From Nocardioides nematodiphilus (lineage in GTDB: Bacteria > Actinomycetota > Actinomycetes > Propionibacteriales > Nocardioidaceae), in NCBI RefSeq assembly GCF_020216525.1, contig NZ_JAIWOY010000001.1:496001-560000 (forward strand): a DNA stretch of 64,000 nt, given 5' to 3'. Positions 41,987 to 59,555 of the stretch are shown here, in pieces. The notes under the pieces are model-generated. The model made no database searches, had not been told where the DNA came from, and was given only the letters and a program-made list of their open reading frames with translations. The position numbers and the translations under genes are program-made. Position 1 is the stretch's first letter. Every line of letters starts with the position of its first letter.

Positions 41987-42706
41987 TCACCTGCCGATCA
42001 GCGTCCGCCAGGCGGTCGGGATCGGCACGTCCCGCGCCGGGAGGTCCGGATCCACGTCACGGGTGACCTGCCCGGGCGGCGGTGCCGTCCAGGATGCCTG
42101 CGCCGGACGCGTGGCGAGCCGGACGTACGGCGCCGGGGCGTCGAGCACCAGCTCGGCGCAGACCAGGGCCGCGAGCGGCTGCAGGGTGGCGCTCGCCCAG
42201 TGCGAACGCACCCAGGTATCGCCGGCCAGGGTCCCCTGCTCGGGCAGGAGCATCAGCCACTGCGGCGGCACCCGTACGGCCTGGGCGACCGGCGGCAGGC
42301 CGGCGGTCGTGAGGAGCGCTTCGCCCGCGCTCCCGCGTGGCACCCGGTAGCGCGCGGCATGCTGACCGCCGTCCATCGCGACCAGCCACGCGTCGACGCC
42401 GTCGGCACTCACCACGGCGCCCGTGCCCGAGGCGGTGACGACCGCCCGCGCCGGCCTCGCCGCCACCGCGAGGCCGGCCCTGTCGGCGGTGCAGGCGCTC
42501 GCCGTCATCGGGGGCCCGGGTGTGAGCAGCGCCCTGATCCCGTATCCCGCGACGAGAAGGACTCCGAGGACGACGCTCGCCACCGCCGCGCCGCCGCGCG
42601 CCCGGTGGGTCTCGCCGGGGACGGCGACCAGGGCGTCGACGAGTCGCCGGCGCTCGTACGCGTCGGCCTCGGCCTGCTCGGCCCGGGTGAGTCCCGTGGT
42701 GATCAC
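41987..42706 (-). CDS. Short EccB-like type VII secretion protein
   Basis: A 239-residue protein with a cytoplasmic N-terminus (YERRRLVDALV), one membrane helix (about 40-60, VASVVLGVLLVAGYGIRALL) and an extracytoplasmic domain. The order and spacing match the N-terminus of EccB, but EccB is usually about 480-500 residues, so about half of the external core is absent. It ends without obvious frameshift. Placement beside eccD-, WXG100- and eccC-type genes supports the call; the family assignment by eye is moderate. A dedicated short EccB variant is the likeliest reading. Confidence 0.65.
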   Translation of the reverse strand: MITTGLTRAEQAEADAYERRRLVDALVAVPGETHRARGGAAVASVVLGVLLVAGYGIRALLTPGPPMTASACTADRAGLAVAARPARAVVTASGTGAVVSADGVDAWLVAMDGGQHAARYRVPRGSAGEALLTTAGLPPVAQAVRVPPQWLMLLPEQGTLAGDTWVRSHWASATLQPLAALVCAELVLDAPAPYVRLATRPAQASWTAPPPGQVTRDVDPDLPARDVPIPTAWRTLIGR

Positions 42707-42709
42707 GGC

Positions 42710-43528
42710 TCACACCGGGAGCCGGTCGAGGAGCCCGCCGGCCAGGACGAAGAGCGGCACCAGCGCGGCCAGCAGGATCGCCTCGCCGAGATCGAGCAGC
42801 CGCTCGCCACGGCCGCTGTGGGGCCGGACGGCGCCCACCAGCACCGCCAGGCAGGCGGTGGCCGCGAGGCAGGTCCCCGACCGGCCGAGGGTGGCGACGA
42901 AGGGCGCCGCGCCCACCAGGATGACGCCGGCGGCGATGGTCAGCGCGGTCAGGATCGCGTACGCGCGGCGGGCCTCGGCGGCCCCCGCACCCGCCGACGC
43001 ACCACCTGGCGCACCGCTCAGCGCGAGCGCGAGTCGCGGGAACAGTCCGCGGCCGAGCACCACGCCGACCAGCAGCGATGCCAGCGACACCGCGACCCCG
43101 TGACCTGGCATCGGGAGGCCGCGCCCGAGGACGATGCCGAGCAGGGTCCCGCCCGCCACCGCCGCACCGGCGTGGGCGAGGGCCACGGCGCGACCCGCAT
43201 GCTCGCGCGCGACGGAGTCGGCGAGTGCCTCGACCGGGTCGTCGTACCGTCGCGGCGCGGGCGGCGCGACACCGGTGGTGAGCGTGAGGATGCTCCCGTC
43301 GGCCACACCCTGGCCCTGCAGACCGGTCTCCGGGGCGAGACGCCGCCCGTCGAGCCGCGTCAGCGCGTAGCCGCGGTGCGCCGTCGTGGCGTCGAGCAGC
43401 CCGACGTCGCGGGCGAGGTCGCCGATGAGCTCCGCGACCGGCACCGCGCCGGGCACGGCGAGATCGACCCGCCGTTCGCCCGCGGCGACGGTGATCCGCA
43501 CGAGCCCGGCGGGGAACAGGTCAGCCAC
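42710..43528 (-). CDS. Short EccD-like type VII secretion membrane protein
   Basis: A 272-residue protein from GTG 43528, overlapping the WXG100 stop by 8 bp; an ATG at 43555 is an alternative. Residues about 1-85 form a ubiquitin-like (YukD) domain (LVRITVAAGERRVDLAVPG, GYALTRLDGRRLAPETGL). About five to six hydrophobic helices follow, against 11 in typical EccD (450-500 aa). It would build the membrane channel with EccB and EccC. The gene stops 4 bp before the EccB-like gene starts. Confidence 0.75.
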   Translation of the reverse strand: MADLFPAGLVRITVAAGERRVDLAVPGAVPVAELIGDLARDVGLLDATTAHRGYALTRLDGRRLAPETGLQGQGVADGSILTLTTGVAPPAPRRYDDPVEALADSVAREHAGRAVALAHAGAAVAGGTLLGIVLGRGLPMPGHGVAVSLASLLVGVVLGRGLFPRLALALSGAPGGASAGAGAAEARRAYAILTALTIAAGVILVGAAPFVATLGRSGTCLAATACLAVLVGAVRPHSGRGERLLDLGEAILLAALVPLFVLAGGLLDRLPV

Positions 43529-43829
43529 CGAAGTAGCCCGCGGCCTTCCGGTCACCGGCGGCGTAGTTCTCCCGCGAGGTCAGCACCCCTTGCCGGGCGT
43601 CGGCGATGATCTGCTGCATCTGGGCGATCTGAGCGGTCCATTCCGCGTGGGCGACGTCGAACGCGTCGCGCGATCGGCCCTCCCAGCCGGCCCCGAAGAT
43701 CCGGCGCAGCGTCGCGCTCAGCTCGTCGAGGCGGCTCTGCAGGGCCGCGTTGGCGGTGCCGAGGTCCGCGGCCATCTGGCCGAGATCGGCTCCGGCGACG
43801 CGGATGGTCCCGTCCGCGTGGTCAGCCAT
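43521..43829 (-). CDS. WXG100-family protein (EsxA-like)
   Basis: A 102-residue helical hairpin protein. The turn motif is Trp49-Glu-Gly51 (GAGWEGRSRDAFD), and a C-terminal YAAGD near residue 91 fits the YxxxD/E secretion signal of type VII substrates. It lies 30 bp downstream of a second WXG100 gene, and the pair would form a heterodimer exported by the EccC machine encoded divergently. Confidence 0.92.
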   Translation of the reverse strand: MADHADGTIRVAGADLGQMAADLGTANAALQSRLDELSATLRRIFGAGWEGRSRDAFDVAHAEWTAQIAQMQQIIADARQGVLTSRENYAAGDRKAAGYFGG

Positions 43830-43859
43830 GTCGTCGTCTCCTTCTCACGTACGCGCTCG

Positions 43860-44180
43860 TCAGCCGAGCCGGTCGGCGATCGCGCGGTAGGCGCTGGACT
43901 CGGTCTCGTCGATCCGGGTCGTGGTCGTCCGGGTCGCGCCGATCGCCTCGCTGAAGCCGGTGAGGATCGTGACGATCTGCTGCTCGCGCTGCTGCCAGCT
44001 CTGGTGGAAGCCGAAGAACGCACCGGCACCCGCCCCCTGCCACGTCGCCGCCATCGGCTCCACCTGGGCCGCGAGTCGCCGTGCGATCGCGTCGAGATCG
44101 CTCTTCGCCGCCGCCACCTCGCGCGCAGCCTGCTCCAGGACGCCCGCGCCCTGATCGATGACACCTGCGGGACCGGTCAT
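43860..44180 (-). CDS. WXG100-family protein (EsxB-like)
   Basis: A 106-residue helical protein with WXG motif Trp47-Gln-Gly49 (ATWQGAGAGAFFGFHQSW). ATG 44180 has a strong AGGAGGGG ribosome site; an upstream in-frame start at 44249 lacks one. It is the first gene of the minus-strand operon (two esx, eccD-like, eccB-like). Residues after the second helix (IDETESSAYRAIADRLG) could hold the export signal. Confidence 0.9.
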   Translation of the reverse strand: MTGPAGVIDQGAGVLEQAAREVAAAKSDLDAIARRLAAQVEPMAATWQGAGAGAFFGFHQSWQQREQQIVTILTGFSEAIGATRTTTTRIDETESSAYRAIADRLG

Positions 44181-44289
44181 GGCCCCTCCTCTCCTGACGG
44201 CTTGGCCGTCGGTCGACACCGGATCCCGAATCGCCCGGACCTCCTTCACCTTCCCGGCACCCGTCGCCGGAAACGCGGGCCGGATCGTC

Positions 44290-44312
44290 TGTGGATAACC
44301 CGCTGTGGATAA
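44290..44312. other. Two perfect DnaA-box sequences between divergent esx and eccC genes
   Basis: TGTGGATAA (reverse of TTATCCACA) occurs at 44290-44298 and 44304-44312, 14 bp apart, in the 179-bp region that must also hold both divergent promoters. A third perfect copy is at 53708-53716. They may be DnaA binding sites with a regulatory role, or chance copies. Confidence 0.5.
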
Positions 44313-44359
44313 CTCGGCGGCCCGGTTTCGGGCCGCCGAGGGGCGGGAAGGGCACGCTC

Positions 44360-47300
44360 ATGGGATCTCTCGTGCTGCAGCCGCCGCCGGTGCCGGACCG
44401 GGCGGAGTCGGGCGGTGTGCTCATGGCCGCCGTCCCGTTGCTCGGCAGCCTCGGCTCGGTCACGCTGATCGTCACGATGGGCGGCCGCGGCGCCCCGGCC
44501 TACCTCGCCGCGGGGCTGTGCCTGGTCGCGAGCCTCGGCTTCGTGGCCGCCCAGGTCGGGGGTCGACGACGCCAGCGCCGGCAGCGGATCGTCGCCCAGC
44601 GCAGCGACTATCTGGCGTACCTCGCCTCGGTCCGCGATCGGGTGCGCGCCACCGAGGAGCAGCAGCGCGACACCGCACTGCGACGCCACCCGAGTCCTGC
44701 GGCGCTGCCGGCTCTCGCGGCGGAGGGCTCGCACCTCGCCGAGCGCGGCCCGGCCGATCCCGACTTCCTCCGGATCCGGTACGGCGTCCGCTCGGCGCCG
44801 CCCGACCTCGAGCTGTCGCTCCCCGACCCGGCGGCCCCAGGTCGACCGGACCCGGTCTGTGTCCGGGCACTCGATCGGCTGGTCGCGGTCCACCGCGATG
44901 TGCCGGATCAACCGGTCACGCTCGATCTGCGTGAGCACCGCCGCCTCCGGGTCGTGGGCGAGCCGGACGCGGCCCGCGCGACGGCCCGCGCCCTGATCTG
45001 CTCCGCGACCGCCCGCCACGCGCCGGAGCACGTGCTCGTCGCCGTGCTGACCACACCCGCCGCCCGGGCGCAGTGGGACTGGCTGAAGTGGCTGCCGCAC
45101 GCCCTCAGCCCGCGTCGTGCGGATGCGGTCGGCGCCTGCCGGCTGGTCGCGACGTCCACCGACGAGCTCGACGCGCTGCTGCCGGGCGACGACGACCCCG
45201 AGCAGCCGCACATCCTCCTCGTCCGCGACGGGGACCTCGCCCCCACGGCCGAGCGGCCGGGTGTCACCGTCGTCGAGCTGGGCCCGGCCGCCGCCGGACC
45301 CGATCCCGGCGGCACCGTCCTCGACGCGGCGGGCCTGCTGGGCGATCGACTCGACCCGATCGTCGCGGAGGCCTACGCGCGCCGCTGGGCGCCGCACCGC
45401 CGTACCCGCTCGATCACGCGCGGCCCGCGCGACCTGATGGCCCTGCTGGGCGCCGGTGACGTGCGGGCGCTGGATCCGGCCGCCGGCTGGCGTCCGCGCC
45501 CCGAGCGCGAGCGGCTGCGCGTCCCGATCGGGGTCGACGACACCGGCGAGCCGGTCCATCTCGACCTCAAGGAGTCCGCGCAGCAGGGCATGGGTCCGCA
45601 CGGGCTGCTCGTCGGCGCCACCGGCTCGGGCAAGTCTGAGCTGCTGCGCACGCTGGTGGTCGGGCTGGCGGCCACCCATGCACCGGACGAGCTCAACCTG
45701 GTGCTCATCGACTTCAAGGGCGGCGCGACCTTCGCCGGGACGGCCGGGCTGCCCCACGTCTCGGCGGTGATCACCAACCTCGCCGACGACCTCGCCCTGG
45801 TCGACCGGATGCAGGACGCGCTCCTCGGGGAGCTGACGCGGCGACAGGAGCTGCTGCGGGCGGCCGGCAACCTGGCCTCGATCACCGAGCACGCCCGCGC
45901 GCGGCGCACCGACCCGACGCTGGCGCCGCTGCCGACGCTGCTGATCGTGGTGGACGAGTTCTCCGAGCTGCTCACCGCCAAGCCCGAGCTGAGCGATCTC
46001 TTCGTCGCGATCGGCCGGCTCGGTCGCTCGCTCGGGCTCCATCTGCTGCTCGCCTCGCAGCGCCTCGAGGAGGGCCGGCTACGGGGGCTCGAGTCGCATC
46101 TGTCCTACCGGATCGGGCTGCGCACCTTCTCGGCACACGAGTCGCGGGCGGTGCTCGGTGTCCCCGACGCGTACGACCTGCCGGCCAGGCCCGGCGCCGG
46201 CTATCTGCGCAGCGGACCCGAGACGCTGGTGCGGTTCCAGGCGGCCTACGTATCGGGCCCGGCGCCGGTGCCCGTCCCGGAGCAGGCGCACGCGGCCGGG
46301 ATCCTCCCGTACGACGTGAGGCCCATCGAGCAGCCCGACGAGCCGATTGTGGACCGCGAGCAGCCGCCGGTGCGCACGGTGCTCGACCTCGCGGTCGAGA
46401 GGCTGACCGGGCGAGGGGCGCCCGCGCACCGGGTCTGGCTGCCACCGCTCGACGAGCCGCCGCGGCTGACGGCCCTGATCGGCGAGCACGCCGAGCTCGT
46501 CGTCCCGGTCGGCGTCGTCGACCGGCCACGGGCGCAGCGCCGCGACACCCTCGCCCTGGACCTGCGCGGCGCCGCCGGCCACGTGGCGATCGTCGGAGGT
46601 CCCCGCTCCGGGAAGTCGGCCCTGCTGCGCACGATCGTCTCGACGCTCGCCCTGACGCTGTCGCCGCGCGAGGCGCAGATCTATGCGATCGACCTGGGCG
46701 GCGCGCTCACCGGGTGGAGCGGGCTGCCGCACCTCTCCGGGCTCGGCACGCGCAGCACGCCGGACGTCGTGCGCCGGATCGTGGCCGAGGTCCGCCAGCT
46801 CCTCGAGCAGCGCGAGGGGGCACCGGACGGTGGCACGATCCGTCACCCGCATCTCTTCCTGGTGGTCGACGGCTGGGCCGGGCTGCGGGCCGAGTTCGAG
46901 GACCTGGAGGGCGAGCTCCAGCAGGTGGCAGAGCGCGGTCTCGCGTACGGCATCCACCTCGTGACGTCCGCCGCCCGCTGGACCGACTACCGACCCGCGC
47001 TGCGCGACCTCCTCGGCTCGCGCCTGGAGCTGCGCCTCGGCGAGGTGAGCGACTCCGCAATCGATCGCCGGCTCGCCGCGACGGTCCCCGCCGGACGTCC
47101 CGGGCGCGGCCTCACCCCCGAGGGGCTGCACTTCCTCGCCGCCCGCCCCGGCGACCCGGACAGGGTGATCGCGCAGACGCGTGCGCTGTGGCCCGGCGCG
47201 AGCGCGCCTCGGCTGCGGCTGCTCCCGGAGCGGATCGACCTCCACGAGCTGCGGCGGGCCGCCGGAGTCACGGCGGAGACACCCGGCAGGCGGCTGCTCC

Positions 47301-47992
47301 TCGGCATCGACGAGCGCGTCCTACGGCCCGTCACGCTCGACCCCGACACCGACCCGCACCTGCTGATCCTCGGCGACGCCCGCTCCGGCAAGAGCTCCCT
47401 GCTGCGCGCCTACGCGCACGAGGTGATCCGCACGCGGAACCCAGCCGAGGCCCAGCTGGTGGTGGTCGATCCGCGGCGCGCGCTGCTCGGCGACCTGCCG
47501 GAGGAGTACGTCGTGCACCACCTGACGTCGGCCGCGCGCTCGGCTCCCGCACTCGAGGAGCTGGCCGCGTACCTCACCCGGCGGCTCCCGGGACCGGACG
47601 TCGCGCCCGCACAGCTGCGCGCCCGGTCGTGGTGGCAGGGAGCGGAGGTCTTCGTGCTGGTCGACGACCACGACCTGGTGACCACCGCCTCCGGCTCACT
47701 GCTCCTCCCCCTGCTGCCGCTGGTGGCGCAGGCGGGCGATGTCGGGCTCCACCTCGTCGTGGCGCGGCGCTGCGGCGGTGCCTCCCGGGCGCTCTACGAG
47801 CCGGTGCTCCAGACCCTGCGCGATCTGGCCACGCCGGGGCTGCTCCTCGACGGCGATCCCGCTGAGGGGCCGCTCCTGGGCACGACCAGGCCCGTCCGTG
47901 CGCAGCCCGGCCGGGCGCGCTTCGTCACCCGCGACCGCACCGAGGTGGTCCAGACCCCCTGGATCGATCCGGAGAGCCGGCGTACCGTTTAA
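44360..47992 (+). CDS. eccC: Type VII secretion ATPase EccC
   Basis: A 1210-residue motor protein. Two N-terminal membrane helices (about 15-65) are followed by three FtsK/SpoIIIE-type ATPase domains with Walker A motifs GATGSGKS (about 418), GGPRSGKS (about 745) and GDARSGKS (about 1004). Domain 1 keeps a full Walker B (LIVVDEFSELL); domains 2 and 3 have LVVDGWAGL and VLVDDHDLV, as is normal for EccC, where these domains bind substrate. ATG 44360 gives MGSLVLQPPP, matching the usual EccC N-terminus (MG..VLQ.PP). It is divergent from the WXG100 operon. Confidence 0.95.
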   Translation: MGSLVLQPPPVPDRAESGGVLMAAVPLLGSLGSVTLIVTMGGRGAPAYLAAGLCLVASLGFVAAQVGGRRRQRRQRIVAQRSDYLAYLASVRDRVRATEEQQRDTALRRHPSPAALPALAAEGSHLAERGPADPDFLRIRYGVRSAPPDLELSLPDPAAPGRPDPVCVRALDRLVAVHRDVPDQPVTLDLREHRRLRVVGEPDAARATARALICSATARHAPEHVLVAVLTTPAARAQWDWLKWLPHALSPRRADAVGACRLVATSTDELDALLPGDDDPEQPHILLVRDGDLAPTAERPGVTVVELGPAAAGPDPGGTVLDAAGLLGDRLDPIVAEAYARRWAPHRRTRSITRGPRDLMALLGAGDVRALDPAAGWRPRPERERLRVPIGVDDTGEPVHLDLKESAQQGMGPHGLLVGATGSGKSELLRTLVVGLAATHAPDELNLVLIDFKGGATFAGTAGLPHVSAVITNLADDLALVDRMQDALLGELTRRQELLRAAGNLASITEHARARRTDPTLAPLPTLLIVVDEFSELLTAKPELSDLFVAIGRLGRSLGLHLLLASQRLEEGRLRGLESHLSYRIGLRTFSAHESRAVLGVPDAYDLPARPGAGYLRSGPETLVRFQAAYVSGPAPVPVPEQAHAAGILPYDVRPIEQPDEPIVDREQPPVRTVLDLAVERLTGRGAPAHRVWLPPLDEPPRLTALIGEHAELVVPVGVVDRPRAQRRDTLALDLRGAAGHVAIVGGPRSGKSALLRTIVSTLALTLSPREAQIYAIDLGGALTGWSGLPHLSGLGTRSTPDVVRRIVAEVRQLLEQREGAPDGGTIRHPHLFLVVDGWAGLRAEFEDLEGELQQVAERGLAYGIHLVTSAARWTDYRPALRDLLGSRLELRLGEVSDSAIDRRLAATVPAGRPGRGLTPEGLHFLAARPGDPDRVIAQTRALWPGASAPRLRLLPERIDLHELRRAAGVTAETPGRRLLLGIDERVLRPVTLDPDTDPHLLILGDARSGKSSLLRAYAHEVIRTRNPAEAQLVVVDPRRALLGDLPEEYVVHHLTSAARSAPALEELAAYLTRRLPGPDVAPAQLRARSWWQGAEVFVLVDDHDLVTTASGSLLLPLLPLVAQAGDVGLHLVVARRCGGASRALYEPVLQTLRDLATPGLLLDGDPAEGPLLGTTRPVRAQPGRARFVTRDRTEVVQTPWIDPESRRTV

Positions 47993-48122
47993 GTAATGTA
48001 ATCTGAGCGACTTAGATAGATTGATTCACCGGATCGTTACCTGACGACAACGTCGCGGCGATCTTGGCGGGCAACGCTTACGACGCACGAACCACCAGAC
48101 ACCCCGGAAGGAGGGGCCCGAC
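47993..48122 (+). other. Intergenic region with AT-rich block before the 58-aa gene
   Basis: Positions 47989-48035 are far richer in A and T than the surroundings (TAAGTAATGTAATCTGAG and on through TTAGATAGATTGATTC). No clear -10/-35 pair could be fixed, but this is the likely promoter for the small gene at 48123. A strong GGAAGGAGG ribosome site lies at the 3' end. Confidence 0.5.
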
Positions 48123-48299
48123 ATGGAGAACACCACCCCGATCGAGCCGATCGCCCTGGACCGCACCACCCTGCAGCAGTCCAGCCTGCGCGACCGCCAC
48201 GCCAGCGCCCTGGCCAAGCTGATGGAGGAGCGCGACGACCTGCGCGGCACGTACGCGTTCGCCGACATGGTCGACGACTCGCTGCGCTGGTCCGCCTGA
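48123..48299 (+). CDS. Small uncharacterised protein, 58 aa
   Basis: The frame starts at ATG 48123 behind GGAAGGAGG and ends at TGA 48297. The product begins MENTTPIEPIALDRTTLQQ, is predicted to be mostly helical and charged (HASALAKLMEERDDLRGTY), and ends MVDDSLRWSA. There is no signal peptide, cysteine or membrane helix. The strong ribosome site, actinobacterial codon bias and following hairpin support a real gene. It follows eccC by 130 bp, but any tie to secretion is speculative. I do not recognise the family. Confidence 0.7.
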   Translation: MENTTPIEPIALDRTTLQQSSLRDRHASALAKLMEERDDLRGTYAFADMVDDSLRWSA

Positions 48300-48407: not shown

Positions 48408-50027
48408 TCAGCGACGCTTGCCGAAGACGCCCTTCAGCACGTTGGTGATGTTGCGCGCCATCTGCTTCTTGCCACGGGGCGCCAACGCCGCCGCGATGTC
48501 GTCGGCGCTGTTCCAGGCGGCGTCGGCGATCGAGCCACCGTGGGCGCCGCTCTTCTTCTCGGCCCGCTGTGTCTTGTGGGCTGCGGCCTCGTCGGCCTTC
48601 GCCTGCTTCGCCGCGACCTTGGCGTCGGCCTCGGCCTTCTCGGCCGCCTGGGCGGCCTGCATCTTCGCGCCGAGGGTGTCGGCCGCGGAGTCCGTCGGAT
48701 CGATGGCGGCGCCGTACTTGGCGAACAGCGGCGAGGCCTGCACGGCCGCGCTCACCACCGACGCATCGGTCGCGCCCATCAGCGACTCGGGCGCCCGCAA
48801 CCGTGTCCACGCCACCGGGGTGGGTGCGCCGCGCTCGTTCATCACGGTCACGATCGCCTCGCCGATGCCGAGGGTCTGGATCACCTGACCCAGATCCGCG
48901 TACGAGGAGGTCGGGTAGGTGTTGACGGTCTGCTTGAGCGCCTTCGCGTCGTTGGGGGTGTTGGCCCGCAGCTGGTGCTGGACGCGCGAGCCGAGCTGGG
49001 CGAGCACGTCCTCGTGGATGTCGGTCGGCGACTGGCTGATGAAGAAGACGCCGACACCCTTCGAGCGGATGAGCCGGACGGTCTGGGTGATCGTGTCCAG
49101 GAAGTCCTTGGAGGCGCCGTTGAAGAGCAGGTGCGCCTCGTCGAAGAAGAAGACCAGCTTCGGCTTGTCCGGGTCGCCGACCTCGGGCAGCTTGCGGTAG
49201 AGGTCCGCGAGCAGCCACATCAGGAAGGTGGAGAAGACGGCCGGCTTGTCCGCGACGTTGGGCAGCTCGAGGAGCGAGATCCGGCCGCGGCCGTCGCCCT
49301 CGACGACGAGGAACTCGCTGGAGTCGAACTCCGGCCGGCCGAAGAAGGCGTCCGCGCCCTGGTCGGAGAACGCGATCAGCTCGCGCAGGATGACGCCGAC
49401 CGTGGCCGAGGACAGGCCGCCGAGTCCGGTCAGGTCCGCCTTGCCCTGCTCGGAGGTCAGGTACGTGAGGACGCTGCGCAGATCCGCCAGGTCGACCAGC
49501 TCGAGGCCGGCGCTCCTGGCGTAGTGGAAGACCAGCCCGAGCGACGACTCCTGGGTGTCGTTGAGCTCGAGCACCCGCGAGAGCAGGGTGGAGCCGAAGG
49601 TGTCGACACTGACCCGGATGGGGACGCCGGAGCCGTTCGCGCCCAGCGCGAAGTACTCCACCGGGAAGCTCTTCGCCGCCCACGTCTGGCCCACCGAGGC
49701 CGTCCGCGCGGTCAGCTTGTCGCTGGTCACGCCCGGCGTGGCCAACCCGGAGAGGTCGCCCTTCATGTCGGCGGCGAAGACCGCGACGCCCGCCGAGGAG
49801 AGCTGCTCGGCGATCAGCTGCAGGGTCTTGGTCTTGCCGGTGCCGGTGGCACCCGCGACCAGGCCGTGCCGGTTGAGCATGCCGATCGGGATCTTGATGT
49901 GGACGTCGGTCAGCGTCTCGGCGTCGGCCATCAGACCGCCCAGCTCGAGCGCCGCGCCGTCGAACACGTAGCCGGGCCGCACGGCCTCGGCGATCGGATT
50001 CGTGGACTCCCCCGGGGTCACCGTCAT
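48408..50027 (-). CDS. HerA-like/DUF853 ATPase
   Basis: A 539-residue P-loop ATPase of the DUF853 (helicase HerA-like) group. Walker A is GATGTGKT (59-66), Walker B is LVFFFDEAHLLF, and the arginine-finger region is LGSRVQHQLRA. The C-terminal 90 residues are Ala/Lys-rich and predicted coiled coil. The family is common in proteobacteria and actinobacteria with no settled role; DNA translocation is inferred from HerA. ATG 50027 is in frame; an overlapping ATG at 50031 is not. Confidence 0.9.
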   Translation of the reverse strand: MTVTPGESTNPIAEAVRPGYVFDGAALELGGLMADAETLTDVHIKIPIGMLNRHGLVAGATGTGKTKTLQLIAEQLSSAGVAVFAADMKGDLSGLATPGVTSDKLTARTASVGQTWAAKSFPVEYFALGANGSGVPIRVSVDTFGSTLLSRVLELNDTQESSLGLVFHYARSAGLELVDLADLRSVLTYLTSEQGKADLTGLGGLSSATVGVILRELIAFSDQGADAFFGRPEFDSSEFLVVEGDGRGRISLLELPNVADKPAVFSTFLMWLLADLYRKLPEVGDPDKPKLVFFFDEAHLLFNGASKDFLDTITQTVRLIRSKGVGVFFISQSPTDIHEDVLAQLGSRVQHQLRANTPNDAKALKQTVNTYPTSSYADLGQVIQTLGIGEAIVTVMNERGAPTPVAWTRLRAPESLMGATDASVVSAAVQASPLFAKYGAAIDPTDSAADTLGAKMQAAQAAEKAEADAKVAAKQAKADEAAAHKTQRAEKKSGAHGGSIADAAWNSADDIAAALAPRGKKQMARNITNVLKGVFGKRR

Positions 50028-50076
50028 GCATGGAACGGTATCCGCGGATCCCAGGTCGTGGCGATAAGGTCGCAGG

Positions 50077-50397
50077 GTGATCTTCAAGCGCGTCGGCTCG
50101 GACCGGCCTTACCCCGATCACGGCCTGACCGCGCGTGAATGGGCCGCCCTTCCGCCGCGTCAGCTGCGCCTCGACGAGCTGATCACCACCAAGGACACGC
50201 TCCAGCTCAGCTCCCTGCTGGACGAGGACTCCACGTTCTACGGCGACCTGTTCGCCCACGTCGTGGAGTGGCGCGGCGAGTACTACCTCGAGGACGGCCT
50301 GCATCGAGCCCTGCGCGCGGCCCTCCAGCAGCGCCACGTGCTGCACGCGCGGGTCCACACCCTGACCGACGCCGCTGCCGCGCCGCAGGGGGCCTGA
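50077..50397 (+). CDS. Conserved actinobacterial protein (annotated elsewhere as VapB-like)
   Basis: A 106-residue protein from GTG 50077 (ribosome site GCAGG) with IFKRVGSDRPYPDHGLTAREWAALP split over its start and a C-terminal EDGLHRALRAALQQR. The family is conserved in actinobacteria, and I recall database names calling it a VapB-family antitoxin. No toxin gene lies beside it, so a toxin-antitoxin role is not supported here. The HRALRAALQQR segment recalls ParB-nuclease-like folds. It is followed directly by the LytR_C gene (TGAGTG junction). Confidence 0.7.
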   Translation: MIFKRVGSDRPYPDHGLTAREWAALPPRQLRLDELITTKDTLQLSSLLDEDSTFYGDLFAHVVEWRGEYYLEDGLHRALRAALQQRHVLHARVHTLTDAAAAPQGA

Positions 50398-53795: not shown

Positions 53796-54098
53796 ATGAT
53801 CGGAGATCCTGGGGCGATCCGCGCCCTGGCCCGTCCCCTGCGCCGCCGCGCCGACGAGCTGCACACCCTGAGTGATCGGCTGCTCGACCAGGCCCGGGCG
53901 ACGTCCTGGCAGGGCGTGGCGGCCGACGCGATGCTGGTCGCCGTGGGCGGCTCGGCGAACGGCCTGCGGCGCACCGCCGACCTGCACGACGAGGCCGCCG
54001 ACGCCCTCGAACGGCACGCCGACCACGTCGCCGCGGCCCTGGCCGCGATCGAGGGCGCCCTGCACGCGCTCAAGAGGGTGATGGGAGCGGTGACATGA
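53796..54098 (+). CDS. WXG100-like protein paired with an alpha/beta hydrolase
   Basis: A 100-residue all-helical protein with WXG motif Trp38-Gln-Gly40 (ATSWQGVAADAM) and a second helix (EAADALERHADHVAAALAAIEGALHAL). It overlaps the next gene by 4 bp (ATGA), the arrangement of an export partner with its cargo. It is not part of the operon near eccC, so it is a separate substrate module, about 6 kb away. Chaperone/co-secreted role is inference. Confidence 0.8.
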   Translation: MIGDPGAIRALARPLRRRADELHTLSDRLLDQARATSWQGVAADAMLVAVGGSANGLRRTADLHDEAADALERHADHVAAALAAIEGALHALKRVMGAVT

Positions 54099-55321
54099 GC
54101 GCCGACATCACCGGGATCAGCGGCGGCCCGGTGCTGAGCGCGGAGTACGACCAGCTGGAGCGGCTCGCCGGGACGTTCGCGCACGCCGGGCTCGTGCTCG
54201 GGGAGTGGCTGGCACTGCCGACCGCCACGCTCCTCGACCCCGACCTGGTCGCGTCCGCATCCCTCGCGCCGGTCAGCTTCGCGCAGGTCGAGGCCCGCCT
54301 GGGCCTGACCATGATCGGGCCCGACTCGCTGGTCCAGGCGGCCGCCTCGTGGGCCGAGCTCGCCCTCGGCGTGATCGCGGCGCGCGGCGTCATCGAGGAG
54401 GTCGACAGCGGCGAGGTGCAGCGGCTGTGGACCGATGCTGACGAGGTGATCCGGCTCAGGACGGCCGGTCTCCCCTCGATGGACACGCTGACCGCAGCGG
54501 CCGGGGGCGGCCTCGGCCTGATCACCGCCACTCTCGGCGCAGCGAACGTGAGCGCGGGCGCCGGGCTGCTGGCCCGGCACCAGGGCCCGGACACCGCGAC
54601 CACCACCCAGCCCGTGACCGTCGGACCGTCCGCGGGCCCGCGGGATCTCGCCGACCTCACACGTCACCTCGGCCTGCTCGCCGACGCGGCCGACGGCAGC
54701 GTCGAGGTGCAGACCCTGACGGCGGTGGACGGCAGCATCCGGCACATCGTCTACCTGCCCGGCACCGACGACATGAACCCCTTCAGCCACGACGCGCAGG
54801 TCCGCGACATGGCCGAGAACGTCCGCCTCATCGCAGGCGAGCCGACCGCGTACGGCGCCGGGATCCTCGCGGCGATGGCGCAGGCCGGCGTGCGACGGGG
54901 GCAACCGGTCCTGCTGGTCGGGCACAGCCAGGGCGGGATGCAGGCGGTCGCGCTCGCCTCGCACGGCACCCCGTACGACGTGACCGACGTGGTCACGCTC
55001 GGCAGCCCGACCGCGCAGATCCGGCACTATCCCGCGGGTGTCCAGGTGCTGTCGCTGGAGCACGTCGGCGACGCGGTGCCCGAGCTCGACGGCGCACCGG
55101 CCTCGACCAACCCGGCGCAGGTCACCGTCCGCTTCGACGACGGCGTCGAGGGGCTGGTCGCGAACCACTCGTACGGGCACTACCTCGCCGGCTCGCGGGC
55201 CGTCGACGCCTCCCACGACGCGACGATCCGGGCGAACGTCGGTGGCCTGGGCAACTTCCTCGCCCCCGGCCAGCACGCCACCTCGCACGTCTTCCAGATC
55301 ACCCGCGTCCGGGGCGGTTGA
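54095..55321 (+). CDS. Alpha/beta-hydrolase, candidate type VII-secreted effector
   Basis: A 408-residue protein. Residues 1-165 are helical and signal-peptide-free. Residues about 200-380 carry a lipase-like domain with nucleophile Ser278 in GHSQGGMQAVALA, an aspartate in EHVGDAVPELD and a histidine in NHSYGHYL. Fusion of an ESX-type helical region to a lipase/esterase and coupling to a WXG100 partner suggest secretion through the EccC system. No immunity protein is obvious next to it. Substrate unknown. Confidence 0.85.
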   Translation: MSADITGISGGPVLSAEYDQLERLAGTFAHAGLVLGEWLALPTATLLDPDLVASASLAPVSFAQVEARLGLTMIGPDSLVQAAASWAELALGVIAARGVIEEVDSGEVQRLWTDADEVIRLRTAGLPSMDTLTAAAGGGLGLITATLGAANVSAGAGLLARHQGPDTATTTQPVTVGPSAGPRDLADLTRHLGLLADAADGSVEVQTLTAVDGSIRHIVYLPGTDDMNPFSHDAQVRDMAENVRLIAGEPTAYGAGILAAMAQAGVRRGQPVLLVGHSQGGMQAVALASHGTPYDVTDVVTLGSPTAQIRHYPAGVQVLSLEHVGDAVPELDGAPASTNPAQVTVRFDDGVEGLVANHSYGHYLAGSRAVDASHDATIRANVGGLGNFLAPGQHATSHVFQITRVRGG

Positions 55322-55410: not shown

Positions 55411-56853
55411 GTGCGTCGTGTCGTCCTGCCCGTCATCGCGGTGGCCGCGCTGGCCGTCCGGCTGGTGCCGTTGCTGGCCGCGTCCGGGCTGGTGAGCGTC
55501 GATCACTATGACGACGGCGTCTACTACGCGGCGGCCGCGTCGCTCGTCGACGGCCGGCTGCCGTACCGCGACTTCGTGCTGCTCCACCCGCCGCTGATCG
55601 CGTTGGTGCTGACGCCGTTCGCCGCTCTCGGCCGGCTGACCAGCGACCCGACCGGCTTCCTCCTCGCTCGCCTGGCCTGGATCCTGGTCGGCACCGCCAC
55701 CGCGGTGCTCGCGGCGCGCTTCGCCGCTCGCTGGGGCACCGGGGCCGCTCTCGTCGCGGGACTGTGGGTGGCGTGCTCGGCCACCGCCTCGTACGCCTCG
55801 CAGAGCACGTTCATCGAGCCGGCCGCCGATCTCGCGCTCCTGGGCGGCGTGGTGCTGATCTCCGGCGACCACGAGCGCCCTCGGCGCGAGCTGGCCGCCG
55901 GCGTCCTGCTCGGCGTCGCCCTCACCGGGAAGATCTGGTACGTCGCACCGGTCGGCGTCCTGCTGCTGGTGCTCCTGCTCCAACGTCGGTTCCGGCCGGC
56001 GCTGCGGGCCGCCGCGACCGCGTCGGTGACCGCCACCGCCATCCTGCTGCCGTTCTTCGTCGCGGACCCCGCCGCCATGTGGCGGATGGTGGTCCACGAC
56101 CAGCTGACGCGCCGCCCGACCGAGCGGGCGACGCTCGCCGACCGGCTCGCGCTCGGCACCATCGGGCACGACCTCGGCCTCGGGCACCCGGGGATGGTGG
56201 CCGCAGCCACGGTCGCGACGGTGCTCCTGGTCGCGGCCACCGTGGCCATCGCACGGTACGAGCGGCAGGCCTGGCCGGTGGCTGCCGTGGCGGCCGCCAC
56301 GCTGGGGCTCCTCCTGCTCAGCCCGAGCAGCTTCCGGCACTACGGCTCGCTGACCGCGGCGCCGGTCGGGATCACCCTCGCGGTCGGGCTCTCGCTCCTC
56401 GGACCACGGATGCTCCCGCACGGACGCACACGGCGGGTCGCCACCGTCGCGCTGGTGGCCACGATCGCGGCCACCGGTGTGCTCACGATCGCGACCTCGC
56501 ACCTCCGCCCCTTCCCCCGGGCGCAGGTCGCCGCCGTGCTGCCCGCGGGCTGCATCACAGCCGACAGCCCGAGCTCGCTCATCCTCACCGACCGGCTCAC
56601 CAGCGACCTCCGCGACCGCTGCCCGGTGCCGGTCGACGTCAGCGGGACCAGCTACGGCGTCGGGATCGCCCGGAGCCGCGACGTGCCCTACCTGACGTGG
56701 CTGCGGGGCTACCTCACGTCGGGGAGCGCGATGATCCTGACCCGCCGGCCGCACGGCGACGGGCTGAGCCGGCCGGAGCTCGCCGCCCTCGGCCGCCCCG
56801 TCTACGACAGCGGCCGGGTACGGGTGCAGCTGCCGCTCAGGCGAGGTCCTTGA
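55411..56853 (+). CDS. GT-C fold membrane glycosyltransferase
   Basis: A 480-residue membrane protein with about 10-11 hydrophobic helices from residue 5 to 365. The first external loop has YDDGVYYAAA (Asp34, Asp35), the acidic pair expected in polyprenyl-sugar-using GT-C enzymes of the GT39/GT87 group, and LLHPPL follows. The C-terminal 110 residues are soluble. Start is GTG 55411, the first plausible codon. It would add a sugar from a lipid donor to a cell-wall glycan or protein; acceptor unknown. Confidence 0.82.
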   Translation: MRRVVLPVIAVAALAVRLVPLLAASGLVSVDHYDDGVYYAAAASLVDGRLPYRDFVLLHPPLIALVLTPFAALGRLTSDPTGFLLARLAWILVGTATAVLAARFAARWGTGAALVAGLWVACSATASYASQSTFIEPAADLALLGGVVLISGDHERPRRELAAGVLLGVALTGKIWYVAPVGVLLLVLLLQRRFRPALRAAATASVTATAILLPFFVADPAAMWRMVVHDQLTRRPTERATLADRLALGTIGHDLGLGHPGMVAAATVATVLLVAATVAIARYERQAWPVAAVAAATLGLLLLSPSSFRHYGSLTAAPVGITLAVGLSLLGPRMLPHGRTRRVATVALVATIAATGVLTIATSHLRPFPRAQVAAVLPAGCITADSPSSLILTDRLTSDLRDRCPVPVDVSGTSYGVGIARSRDVPYLTWLRGYLTSGSAMILTRRPHGDGLSRPELAALGRPVYDSGRVRVQLPLRRGP

Positions 56854-58240
56854 TGAAGGTCTGCAGCTGGACCAGGTTGCGGCACTCCACCATCGGCACG
56901 AGCGCCGCATAGCGGGAGGCCGCCGAGTCGCCGGTGTCCCACTGGCGCCGCACCTCCGGGTTGAGCCACCACTGGTGACGGCTGCGGTCGACGACCTCCT
57001 GCAGCGCGGGCAGCGCGAGGTCGGCGTAGTTGGAGCGGGCGTCGCCGAGGATGAGCACCGACGACTTCGGGGTGAGGGCGTCGCCGTGCAGCTCGACGAA
57101 GCGGGTGAGCGCGCGGCCGTAGTTGGTCCGACCCATCCGGGCGGCGTGCGCCGAGGACTCGACCAGGCCGGTCATCACGTCGACCAGGTCGGCTCCCGGT
57201 CGGAACTGGTCGGTGACCTCGACGATGTCGTCGACGAACGTGAAGGCGCGGACCTTGGTGAAGACCTCGCGCAGCGCGAAGACCAGCATCAGGGTGAAGG
57301 TGGCGAAGTTGGCCACCGAGCCGGACACGTCGCACAGCACCACCAGCTCGCTGCGGTGGGGCCGCTTCGGCTTGTGGTGGGTGGTGATCGGGACACCGCC
57401 GGAGGCCATCGAGGCGCGGACCGTACGACGGAAGTCGAGCGGGCCGCGATGACGCGACCGCTGCTCGCGCGCCAGCCGGGTGGCCATCCGGCGGGCGAGC
57501 GGATAGAGCTCGCGGCGCAGCTCCTCGACGTCGGCTCGGCGCATGTGCAGGAAGTCGAGCCGGTCGATCGTCGGACGCACCGTCACCTGGGCGATGTGCT
57601 CGGGCCCCTTCTCCTCCGCGATCCGGCGCCGCGCGTCGGCCTCGACCATCGCGACGTAGGAGCCCGTACGACGCCCGGCGGCGCGCTCGGCCTCCTCCTC
57701 GGTCCAGCCGTGGCTGCGCAGCGCCTCGGCCAGCCGCTGGGTGAGATCGTCGGTGGAGAGCCGGCGCAGCGCGGTGTAGGACGACCACGACGACAGCCCC
57801 GGCCCACGCCCCGGCATCGACCCGAACCGGCCGACCGCCTCGGCCGCGAGCTCGCGCAGCCGCTCCACGTCATCGGCCGCCAGCGCCTCGAGGATCTGCT
57901 CCTGCATCGCGGCGAGCGCCTCGCCGTTGTCCATCGACTCGGCCCTCGGGCCACCCTCAACCGGCCCTCCGGCGCCGTCGACCTGGCCCTCGAGCAGACC
58001 GTCGGCGGCGCCCTCCCCGACCAGCCGCGGGAAGTAGAGCTCGAAGAGCTGGTCGAAGGTCGCCCGCTGACCCTGCCGCTTGACCACCGTGGCCGCGTAC
58101 ACGTCGCGCACGGTCGTCCGTGACGACCAGCCGACCGCACCGAGCGCGGTGACCGCGTCCAGGTCCTCCGACAGCGAGACCGGGAGCCCCGCGCCGCGCA
58201 GGGCCTCGAGGAACGCGATATGCCGATCGAGCAGGGTCAT
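56837..58240 (-). CDS. VWA-domain CoxE-like protein
   Basis: A 467-residue protein whose C-terminal half is a von Willebrand factor A domain with MIDAS motif DVSGSV (Asp304 first). Residues about 1-90 are the short CoxE-type N-terminus. Together with the adjacent MoxR ATPase (8-bp gap) it forms a pair that typically remodels or inserts metal centres in other proteins, as CoxD/CoxE do for CO dehydrogenase; the client here is unknown because no oxidoreductase lies nearby. The gene's 3' end overlaps the glycosyltransferase end by 17 bp. Confidence 0.88.
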   Translation of the reverse strand: MTLLDRHIAFLEALRGAGLPVSLSEDLDAVTALGAVGWSSRTTVRDVYAATVVKRQGQRATFDQLFELYFPRLVGEGAADGLLEGQVDGAGGPVEGGPRAESMDNGEALAAMQEQILEALAADDVERLRELAAEAVGRFGSMPGRGPGLSSWSSYTALRRLSTDDLTQRLAEALRSHGWTEEEAERAAGRRTGSYVAMVEADARRRIAEEKGPEHIAQVTVRPTIDRLDFLHMRRADVEELRRELYPLARRMATRLAREQRSRHRGPLDFRRTVRASMASGGVPITTHHKPKRPHRSELVVLCDVSGSVANFATFTLMLVFALREVFTKVRAFTFVDDIVEVTDQFRPGADLVDVMTGLVESSAHAARMGRTNYGRALTRFVELHGDALTPKSSVLILGDARSNYADLALPALQEVVDRSRHQWWLNPEVRRQWDTGDSAASRYAALVPMVECRNLVQLQTFIKDLA

Positions 58241-58248
58241 CGACGCGC

Positions 58249-59184
58249 CTAACGGAACGGGTGGGCCGACGTCGTGCTCGCGACCGGGCCGCCGGTGGCG
58301 AGTCGCAGCTCGCGGCGCGCCCGGTCCTGGTCCGAGACGTGCTTGAGCACCACGCCGAGGGTGGCGTCGATGGTGGCGGCGTCCAGCGTGCCGGCCTGCA
58401 GCGCGATCAGGGTGCGCGCCCAGTCGACCGACTCCGCGATCGAGGGCGCCTTCTTCAGCTCCAGCTCGCGCAGCCGCGCCACCACGTCCACGAGCTGTGC
58501 GACCACGCCCTCGTCGAGCTCCGGTACGTGCCGGGTGACGATCTCGCGCTCCCGCGACGCCGACGGATAGTCCAGGTGCAGGTAGAGGCAGCGGCGCTTC
58601 ACCGCCTCGGAGAGCTCGCGGGCGGCGTTGGAGGTGAGCACGACGAACGGGCGGCGCACCGCCTCGATCGTGCCGAGCTCGGGCACGGTCACCTGGAAGT
58701 CGGACAGCACCTCGAGCAGCAGGCCCTCCACCTCGACGTCGGTCTTGTCGACCTCGTCGATGAGGAGCACCGTCGGCTCCGTGCGGCGGATGGCGGTGAG
58801 CAGCGGGCGCGACAGCAGGAACTCCTCGCCGAAGATCTCGTCGTGTGCCTCGGCCCAGCTCTGCGACCCGGTGCCCTCGACGCCGGCGGCCTGGATCCGC
58901 AGCAGCTGCTTCTTGTAGTTCCACTCGTACAGGGCCCGCGCCTCGTCGAGGCCCTCGTAGCACTGCAGCCGGACCAGCTCGGCGTCCGCGGCCCGCGCGA
59001 CCGCCTTCGCGAACTCGGTCTTCCCGACGCCGGCCGGGCCCTCGATCAGCACCGGCTTCTCCAGCGCACCGGCCAGGAAGGCGACCGTCGCGGTCGCCTC
59101 GTCGGCGAGGTAGCCCGTCGCACCCAGGCGGGTGAGGGCGTCGGACGGCGAGGAGAACCAAGCGGGAGCTGCCATGCAGGGCAT
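58249..59184 (-). CDS. MoxR-family AAA+ ATPase
   Basis: A 311-residue AAA+ chaperone. Walker A is GPAGVGKTE (49-57), Walker B is VLLIDEVDKTD, with sensor LTSNAARELSEAVKRRCLYLHLDYP split over residues about 195-220. ATG 59184 has AGGG at good spacing; ATG 59175 is an in-frame alternative. It is coupled to the VWA protein and divergent from a small secreted protein 47 bp away. Confidence 0.92.
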   Translation of the reverse strand: MPCMAAPAWFSSPSDALTRLGATGYLADEATATVAFLAGALEKPVLIEGPAGVGKTEFAKAVARAADAELVRLQCYEGLDEARALYEWNYKKQLLRIQAAGVEGTGSQSWAEAHDEIFGEEFLLSRPLLTAIRRTEPTVLLIDEVDKTDVEVEGLLLEVLSDFQVTVPELGTIEAVRRPFVVLTSNAARELSEAVKRRCLYLHLDYPSASREREIVTRHVPELDEGVVAQLVDVVARLRELELKKAPSIAESVDWARTLIALQAGTLDAATIDATLGVVLKHVSDQDRARRELRLATGGPVASTTSAHPFR

Positions 59185-59231
59185 CTTGCCCTACTGGCGT
59201 CACGTCCTGGGCGGAGCCTCGTTGAGCCTGT

Positions 59232-59555
59232 GTGCAGTTGTTCCGCCACCTCCTCGGGATCGTCTTGGGCCTGGCCCTGACGGCGCTCGTGGTGATCCCG
59301 GTGACCGCCGCCGTCGTCTCCTCCGCCGAGGAGGACACGCCGCACGGATCGGTGACCGCGGGCCTGGCGCGCGACCTCACCACCCCCGCTGCGGACGTGC
59401 CGGATCGCTGTCACGGCACCGGCGCGCTCATCCGCACGCATGGCCGGATCCACCAGGTCAGCCTCGCCCGCGGTCTGCGGACCTACGAGCACAAGGCGCC
59501 CGGCACGTTTCTCAGCCTGTGCCCACGCGGGGACGCGACACCTCAGGGTTCGTGA
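59232..59555 (+). CDS. Small secreted protein, 107 aa
   Basis: From GTG 59232, a signal segment ([20 protein letters not shown], residues 4-23) is followed by an 80-residue exported part with two cysteines (DRCHGTG and LSLCPRG) that could form a disulfide. No family recognised. It lies between the MoxR/VWA pair and the two-component system; a link to either is only positional. Confidence 0.65.

Follow-up and report, generated by a model that had tools for sequence, protein, structure and literature searches.

Type VII secretion systems (T7SS) of the Firmicutes kind (T7SSb) are built from EssC, EsxA, YukD, YukC/EssB, and EsaA. On the actinobacterial side, ESX-4 clusters contain EccB, EccC, EccD, MycP, and two WXG proteins, as stated in excerpts of the source (PMC4791881). 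Here we analyze a T7SS locus of Nocardioides nematodiphilus (genome of 3.79 Mb, 99.2% complete) that lies within a stretch of 64,000 nucleotides, positions 496001-560000 of contig C1, referred to as the window. Its eccC gene, on the plus strand, is divergent from minus-strand genes for two WXG100 proteins, an EccD of 281 amino acids (aa), and an EccB of 239 aa. Sequence comparisons indicate that this is probably a Nocardioides ESX-4-like T7SS that was reduced in place, through loss of mycP and of a gene for a second EccD-like protein (eccD2) and through internal deletions in eccB, eccD, and eccC, and that likely still exports its WXG100 pair.

Like ESX-4 clusters, the window has EccC, a pair of WXG100 proteins, and homologues of EccB and EccD, arranged as in the Nocardioides version, and it has no EccE; it differs in having neither mycP nor a second EccD-like protein, in the roughly half size of EccB and EccD, and in an EccC about 100 aa shorter. 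The locus is ESX-4-like, an assignment made by gene content and not by a tree with mycobacterial systems. Its likeness to T7SSb consists of the small number of parts, an FtsK-type ATPase, and WXG100 proteins, whereas its EccC is of the actinobacterial kind, its ubiquitin-like domain is fused to membrane helices, and YukC/EssB was not found.

Excerpts of the published accounts of ESX structures describe EccB as dimerizing via its repeats R1 and R4 and its C terminus, with R3 joining the dimers and MycP bound to R4 and the C terminus. The EccB helix rests on EccD helices 6 and 11, EccD pairing sets helices 9/10 against helices 1/2, the loop between EccD helices 6 and 7 lies beside the EccC stalk, and EccC helices form the central pore. 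Compared with the solved ESX-5 and ESX-3 complexes, the window keeps the EccB core and R2, helices 6 and 11 of EccD together with its ubiquitin-like domain, and the EccC membrane helices and nucleotide-binding domains (NBDs), but lacks the EccB-dimer parts, the parts of the MycP-capped chamber, much of the EccD pair interface, and EccE. By analogy with these complexes, it would retain the parts that hold EccB and EccC together and would have lost much of those that form the chamber and the barrel.

Proteins encoded by the locus and genes absent from it

All five open reading frames (ORFs) are intact and have a coding-type codon composition; gene order, missing genes, and deletion positions were computed directly, as were the halfway relatives and the positions of EccB and EccD in trees. 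EccC, read from the ATG at 44360 (the longest frame begins at 44291), carries three Walker A motifs (residues 419, 746, and 1005) and scores far above the cut-offs of the actinobacterial models TIGR03924 (783 bits) and TIGR03925 (730 bits), and its score with the Firmicutes EssC model (395.7 bits) is below the cut-off of 778.4. Both WXG100 proteins match PF06013 above its cut-off. The initial annotation, which had described intact frames, a three-ATPase EccC of 1210 aa, and two WXG100 proteins, is sustained on each of these points. The EsxA-like protein carries W-x-G and a C-terminal YxxxD (NYAAGD); it is 70% identical to its counterpart in Nocardioides sp. Iso805N (locus L078) and 33-36% identical to those of three other Nocardioides.

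That EccC is itself short was not part of the earlier description. Among 80 named relatives, 78 have an EccC of 1288-1344 aa (the other two are 1178 and 2125 aa as extracted), and the window's deficit of about 100 aa is spread over nine pieces, with 90 of 101 lost positions inside the domain of unknown function (DUF) and NBD2 (domain borders are rough). The length of NBD1 is kept within 3-5 aa, and its identity to Iso805N is 77%.

The 281-aa protein contains a YukD/ubiquitin-like domain (72.6 bits) and matches the EccD model TIGR03920 with 58.5 bits, below the cut-off of 94.95. Its AlphaFold2 model has a ubiquitin-like fold followed by five long helices (mean predicted local distance difference test [pLDDT], 75.7; predicted template modeling score [pTM], 0.56). 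Two internal gaps are seen relative to full-length relatives, with helices 2-5 and 9-10 lost and helices 1, 6-8, and 11 kept. This EccD is therefore predicted to have 5 membrane helices instead of 11, in line with the five or six first proposed.

The 239-aa protein matches PF05108 at positions 2-78 only (24.7 bits; cut-off, 27) and the curated EccB model with 17.8 bits (cut-off, 154), and it does not have the full set of four repeats plus core. Its predicted model superposes on solved EccB1, residues 142 to 447; as first suggested, it is an EccB homologue, one with the core and R2. With domain borders taken from excerpts of PMC4769845, alignment of the series of forms described below shows that the membrane helix, both parts of the core domain, and R2 are kept and that R1, R3, and most of R4 bar its last helix are missing; the membrane helix joins the core directly. 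Profile searches thus place both short proteins with EccB and EccD, each under the cut-offs of those models. No full-length eccB or eccD came to light elsewhere: the sole EccB match in the whole genome is the window protein, and the EccD membrane-domain model PF19053 has no match there (14 control genomes had no match over the cut-off for EccB, EccE, or PF19053 and hence gave no positive control).

Comparison with complete loci reveals neither mycP nor eccD2 in the window locus, and no remnant of either. The only match to the mycosin model in the genome is a 473-aa subtilase on another contig (169 bits; cut-off, 278.75), which lacks a C-terminal membrane helix and is the counterpart of an Iso805N subtilase separate from mycP (61% identity over 414 aa). 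This protein (L021:8851-10272, contig C24) carries a C-terminal YSWD-type repeat. EccE had no match in the whole genome, a search for which the control genomes are not a positive control; 5 further Nocardioides genomes gave two weak matches (E 0.05 and 0.09) but nothing above the cut-off. Because those genomes also lack an EccE over the cut-off, and because of the ESX-4 content given in the excerpted source (PMC4791881), its absence is ordinary. Searching the genome for YukC/EssB gave no match up to E 0.1; 4 of the 14 control genomes match, B. subtilis included. The list of absent genes in the initial annotation stands for mycP in the locus and for EccE. A WXG100-like protein of 100 aa in the window (53796-54098), also new relative to that annotation, lies marginally above the PPE cut-off (26.2 versus 26), and no genome-wide search was aimed at EccA, PE, or PPE.

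Complete, halfway, and short forms in relatives

From an EccC-based scan, we took the best 80 of 260 confirmed stretches; the titles of 73 name Nocardioides. Genes are usually ordered mycP-eccB-eccD1-esxA-esxB-eccD2, with eccC divergent, and named Nocardioides have this complete version, at the same chromosomal place in the cases compared. Gene names were verified on Iso805N, in which EccB (167 bits; cut-off, 154) and EccD1 (112.7 bits; cut-off, 94.95) score over their cut-offs, mycP (127 bits) falls under the mycosin cut-off of 278.75 yet above the Pfam subtilase cut-off, and the eccD2 product matches EccD only weakly (17.9 bits; cut-off, 30), hence the term EccD-like second protein. Iso805N and most named loci encode two different EccD-like proteins; each may supply one half of the EccD pair, which is a homodimer in mycobacterial structures.

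Downstream of the window locus, gene order is conserved with Iso805N, from a 106-aa protein (87% identity), an antiporter (86%), and an aminotransferase (87%) to a further frame at 56837-59410 (88% over 179 aa); L081 likewise has matching neighbors. The T7SS proteins rank among the most divergent (EccB, 46%; EsxB-like, 50%; EccD, 51%; EccC, 55%; EsxA-like, 70%). Given the matching neighbor order, we take the window locus to be the same locus, with acceleration.

Protein searches bore out the expectation that short forms are conserved in relatives. The record of another Nocardioides metagenome-assembled genome (MAG) holds an EccB of the same length (P0001, 239 aa) and a 276-aa EccD (P0007), both 96-97% identical to the window. 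Four more short EccBs (P0002, 235 aa; P0003 and P0004, 238 aa each; P0128, 230 aa) differ from the window EccB by 26-38% (P0002-P0004) or 52% (P0128), with nearly the same boundaries and intact frames. Halfway EccBs (P0005, 367 aa; P0126, 371 aa; P0127, 369 aa) have lost R3 and kept R1 and R4, and P0129 (465 aa) is complete. Among EccDs, P0007-P0009 are short and P0010 is halfway; hydropathy helix counts are 11 for Iso805N and L156, 10 for L081, 7 for P0010, 5 for the window, and 4 each for P0008 and P0009, in which helix 1 falls below the threshold.

In the EccB tree, built on shared columns, the nine reduced forms (the window included) form one clade (100/100) beside Iso805N and P0129; grouping with full-length Iso805N has support of 100/99 for EccB and 96/86 for EccD, whose short and halfway forms are likewise one clade beside Iso805N. 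Because the reduced forms lie among complete ones, we infer a direction from complete to halfway to short. The deletion modules would be mycP with the second EccD-like gene; R3 of EccB, then R1 with R4; and four helices of EccD, then two. P0128 pairs with the halfway P0127 (92/94, not starred); the second EccB step (R1/R4) may therefore have happened twice, and P0128 is perhaps a short form of separate origin.

Co-loss of mycP and eccD2 was assessed in 67 loci, the window's and 66 named ones, that contain eccB and extend 1500 bases or more past it. Four lack eccD2, namely, the window, L148 (N. sp. Yes46-02), L150 (N. sp. RYN_190), and L156 (N. soli), and all four lack an intact mycP; mycP is present in 61 of the 63 loci with eccD2 (exceptions, L143 and L151). 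L148, with full-length eccB and eccD1, retains a truncated mycP (L148:4405-5082) that matches just the final third of the model. Like the window, the three named loci lack eccD2 and intact mycP; unlike it, they have full-length EccB and EccD1. A single shared origin of their losses was rejected, as they do not form one clade (approximately unbiased [AU] test, p 0.0006), which gives at least two origins besides the window's. Other subtilases encoded in their genomes do match the mycosin model (best scores, 241, 187, and 92 bits, respectively). We suggest that eccD2 and mycP constitute one functional module.

The short form is rare: besides the window's genome, it was seen in one close MAG record and in a small number of metagenome proteins. 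EccD matched in 195 of 215 genus genomes, and all matches listed are at least 451 aa long except the window's own (289 aa), G298 (277 aa; frameshifted, with genes split over frames), and G306 (123 aa; a short frame near a contig start). A short-EccB profile matched in 153 of 391 order genomes; among the matches listed, the window's own is the only short one apart from that of G139, which a contig end truncates. We found no description of such short forms in the literature searched; the locus is new as a variant of an already known kind of T7SS.

Proposed mechanism and competing explanations

The machine most likely still works. EccC, in which the catalytic NBD1 is best conserved, would take the EsxA/EsxB-like pair as substrate and drive it through a pore formed by its own membrane helices. 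Around this pore, EccB membrane helices would make a ring, each still held by the kept EccD helices 6 and 11. Since the second EccD-like protein is missing and EccD has lost helices 2, 9, and 10, which face the dimer partner, the lipid-filled barrel of paired EccDs would have disappeared or shrunk considerably. Loss of mycP, and of the EccB elements that in ESX-5 build the chamber and bind MycP (R1, R3, most of R4, and the C terminus), would leave no MycP-capped chamber outside the membrane. Of the extracytoplasmic part, just the disulfide core and R2 would be left to form a small collar above the pore, and the EccC/EccB/EccD ring would export the WXG100 proteins into the wall with no chamber involved. 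We advance this reading, in which a T7SS without mycosin, EccB chamber, or paired EccD barrel exports via its membrane pore alone and was reached by modular deletions, tentatively and at somewhat under an even chance.

Several observations weigh against reduction to a working machine or against this mechanism. The subtilase encoded elsewhere outscores Iso805N mycP on the mycosin model (169 versus 127 bits) and could in principle stand in for MycP. In ESX-5, the pocket for the EccB N terminus, according to the excerpted account, also uses transmembrane helix (TMH) 10, which the window EccD has lost while keeping the dimer-contact helix TMH1; confidence in the EccD model is modest, and the hydropathy counts of P0008, P0009 (4 each), and L081 (10) depart from expectation. 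The halfway EccBs and EccD are single metagenome proteins, none of which links both in one locus, and the window's genome is the only short-form carrier among the matches listed from the 215 genus and 391 order genomes. Some neighbors are also of low identity to Iso805N (LytR_C-like, 72%; hydrolase, 59%; WXG100-like, 57%), and NBD1 is the best-conserved part in complete systems also (92% between L078 and L081). The EccC tree joins the window to the long branch L146 and not to L078, despite L078 being the most identical row (61%), although this tree is uninformative on placement because the window's branch is too long. That branch length (1.41) is as expected also under relaxed selection.

The last point, together with the joint losses in EccC, EccB, and EccD, the disappearance of mycP and eccD2, and the truncated mycP remnant in L148, would suit a decaying locus, in which secretion has become superfluous, erosion starts with the structural proteins, and the frames still left would follow in turn. 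We consider decay unlikely, because P0002-P0004 and P0128, for all their divergence, share nearly the same EccB boundaries with open frames, because NBD1 and the EsxA-like protein are well conserved, and because EccD helices were lost in even numbers. In addition, all window frames are open, the three Walker A motifs persist, and the deletions follow domain and hairpin boundaries. A repurposed complex that anchors EccC at the membrane for some other task, with no WXG100 export, could account for the loss of most parts that face outside in ESX-5; the WXG100 pair is still in the operon, however, and its EsxA-like member keeps W-x-G and YxxxD, which leaves this explanation improbable.

The initial annotation had proposed a minimal machine intermediate between actinobacterial and Firmicutes-type systems, a view that small size and an EccD made of a ubiquitin-like domain with few helices might encourage. 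We discard it as hardly credible: the short EccB and EccD nest with Iso805N inside Nocardioides, beside its full-length forms, halfway forms exist, and synteny, EccC scores (783/730 versus 396 bits), and the lack of a YukC/EssB match agree. Short forms beside full-length ones, together with shared downstream neighbors, fit reduction and do not fit an ancient intermediate. An assembly or frameshift artifact of full-length genes, of which G298 is an instance, can be dismissed with near certainty given single open frames, in-frame deletions, the near-identical P0001/P0007 of the MAG, and four more EccBs and two more EccDs (P0008 and P0009) alike.

If the pore-only mechanism is true, the locus would be the smallest natural core of an actinobacterial T7SS, and MycP, the EccB dome, and the second EccD would be one dispensable module. 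In our judgment, which T7SS parts are needed for transport, and why a protease is a structural part, are unsettled. The locus and its halfway relatives form a natural deletion series that indicates which EccB repeats and EccD helices can go, with MycP tending to go together with the second EccD-like protein. So small a machine might be easier to purify and to solve in the open state.

Features of the locus and other observations

Table 1. Features of the short-form T7SS locus (window positions; residues refer to the encoded protein)
Feature	Position	Strand	Description
eccC	44360..47992	+	1210-aa ATPase: two N-terminal membrane helices, degenerate first domain, three NBDs
esxB-like WXG100 protein, 129 aa (longest frame)	43860..44249	-	PF06013, 48.9 bits, over cut-off; syntenic with canonical loci
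esxA-like WXG100 protein, 102 aa	43521..43829	-	PF06013, 53.6 bits, over cut-off
Short eccD, 281 aa (272 aa if start is 43528)	42710..43555	-	Ubiquitin-like domain and five predicted helices, equivalent to TM1, 6, 7, 8, 11
EccD ubiquitin-like domain, residues 18-94	43274..43504	-	YukD match and predicted model
EccD linker and five predicted membrane helices, residues 107-273	42737..43237	-	Alignment/hydropathy series, predicted model
Short eccB, 239 aa	41987..42706	-	N-terminal tail, one membrane helix, core with Cys72 and Cys183, R2, last R4 helix
EccB membrane helix, residues 39-61	42524..42592	-	Predicted model
EccB remaining extracytoplasmic domain, residues 64-239	41990..42517	-	

Adjoining eccC is a HerA_C-type helicase gene (48408-50087); the matching gap in Iso805N (L078, 13002-13514) is too small for a helicase. 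Farther along the window (53796-55321), the 100-aa WXG100-like protein is followed by an alpha/beta-hydrolase-like protein of 408 aa; both have counterparts in Iso805N and are possible substrates.

Contig C27 encodes a second EccC/EssC-like ATPase frame of 1571 aa (L019:4304-9406; C27:150304-155406) that matches TIGR03928 with 562 bits, under the cut-off, followed by a single WXG100 protein; adjoining ORFs resemble Tad/CpaF pilus genes (named by eye). The same contig encodes a 733-aa protein (L018:5131-7332) whose N terminus is WXG100/PPE-like (under the cut-offs) and which is flanked by a small ORF and a lipoprotein-like ORF; together these may be a set of T7SS substrates.

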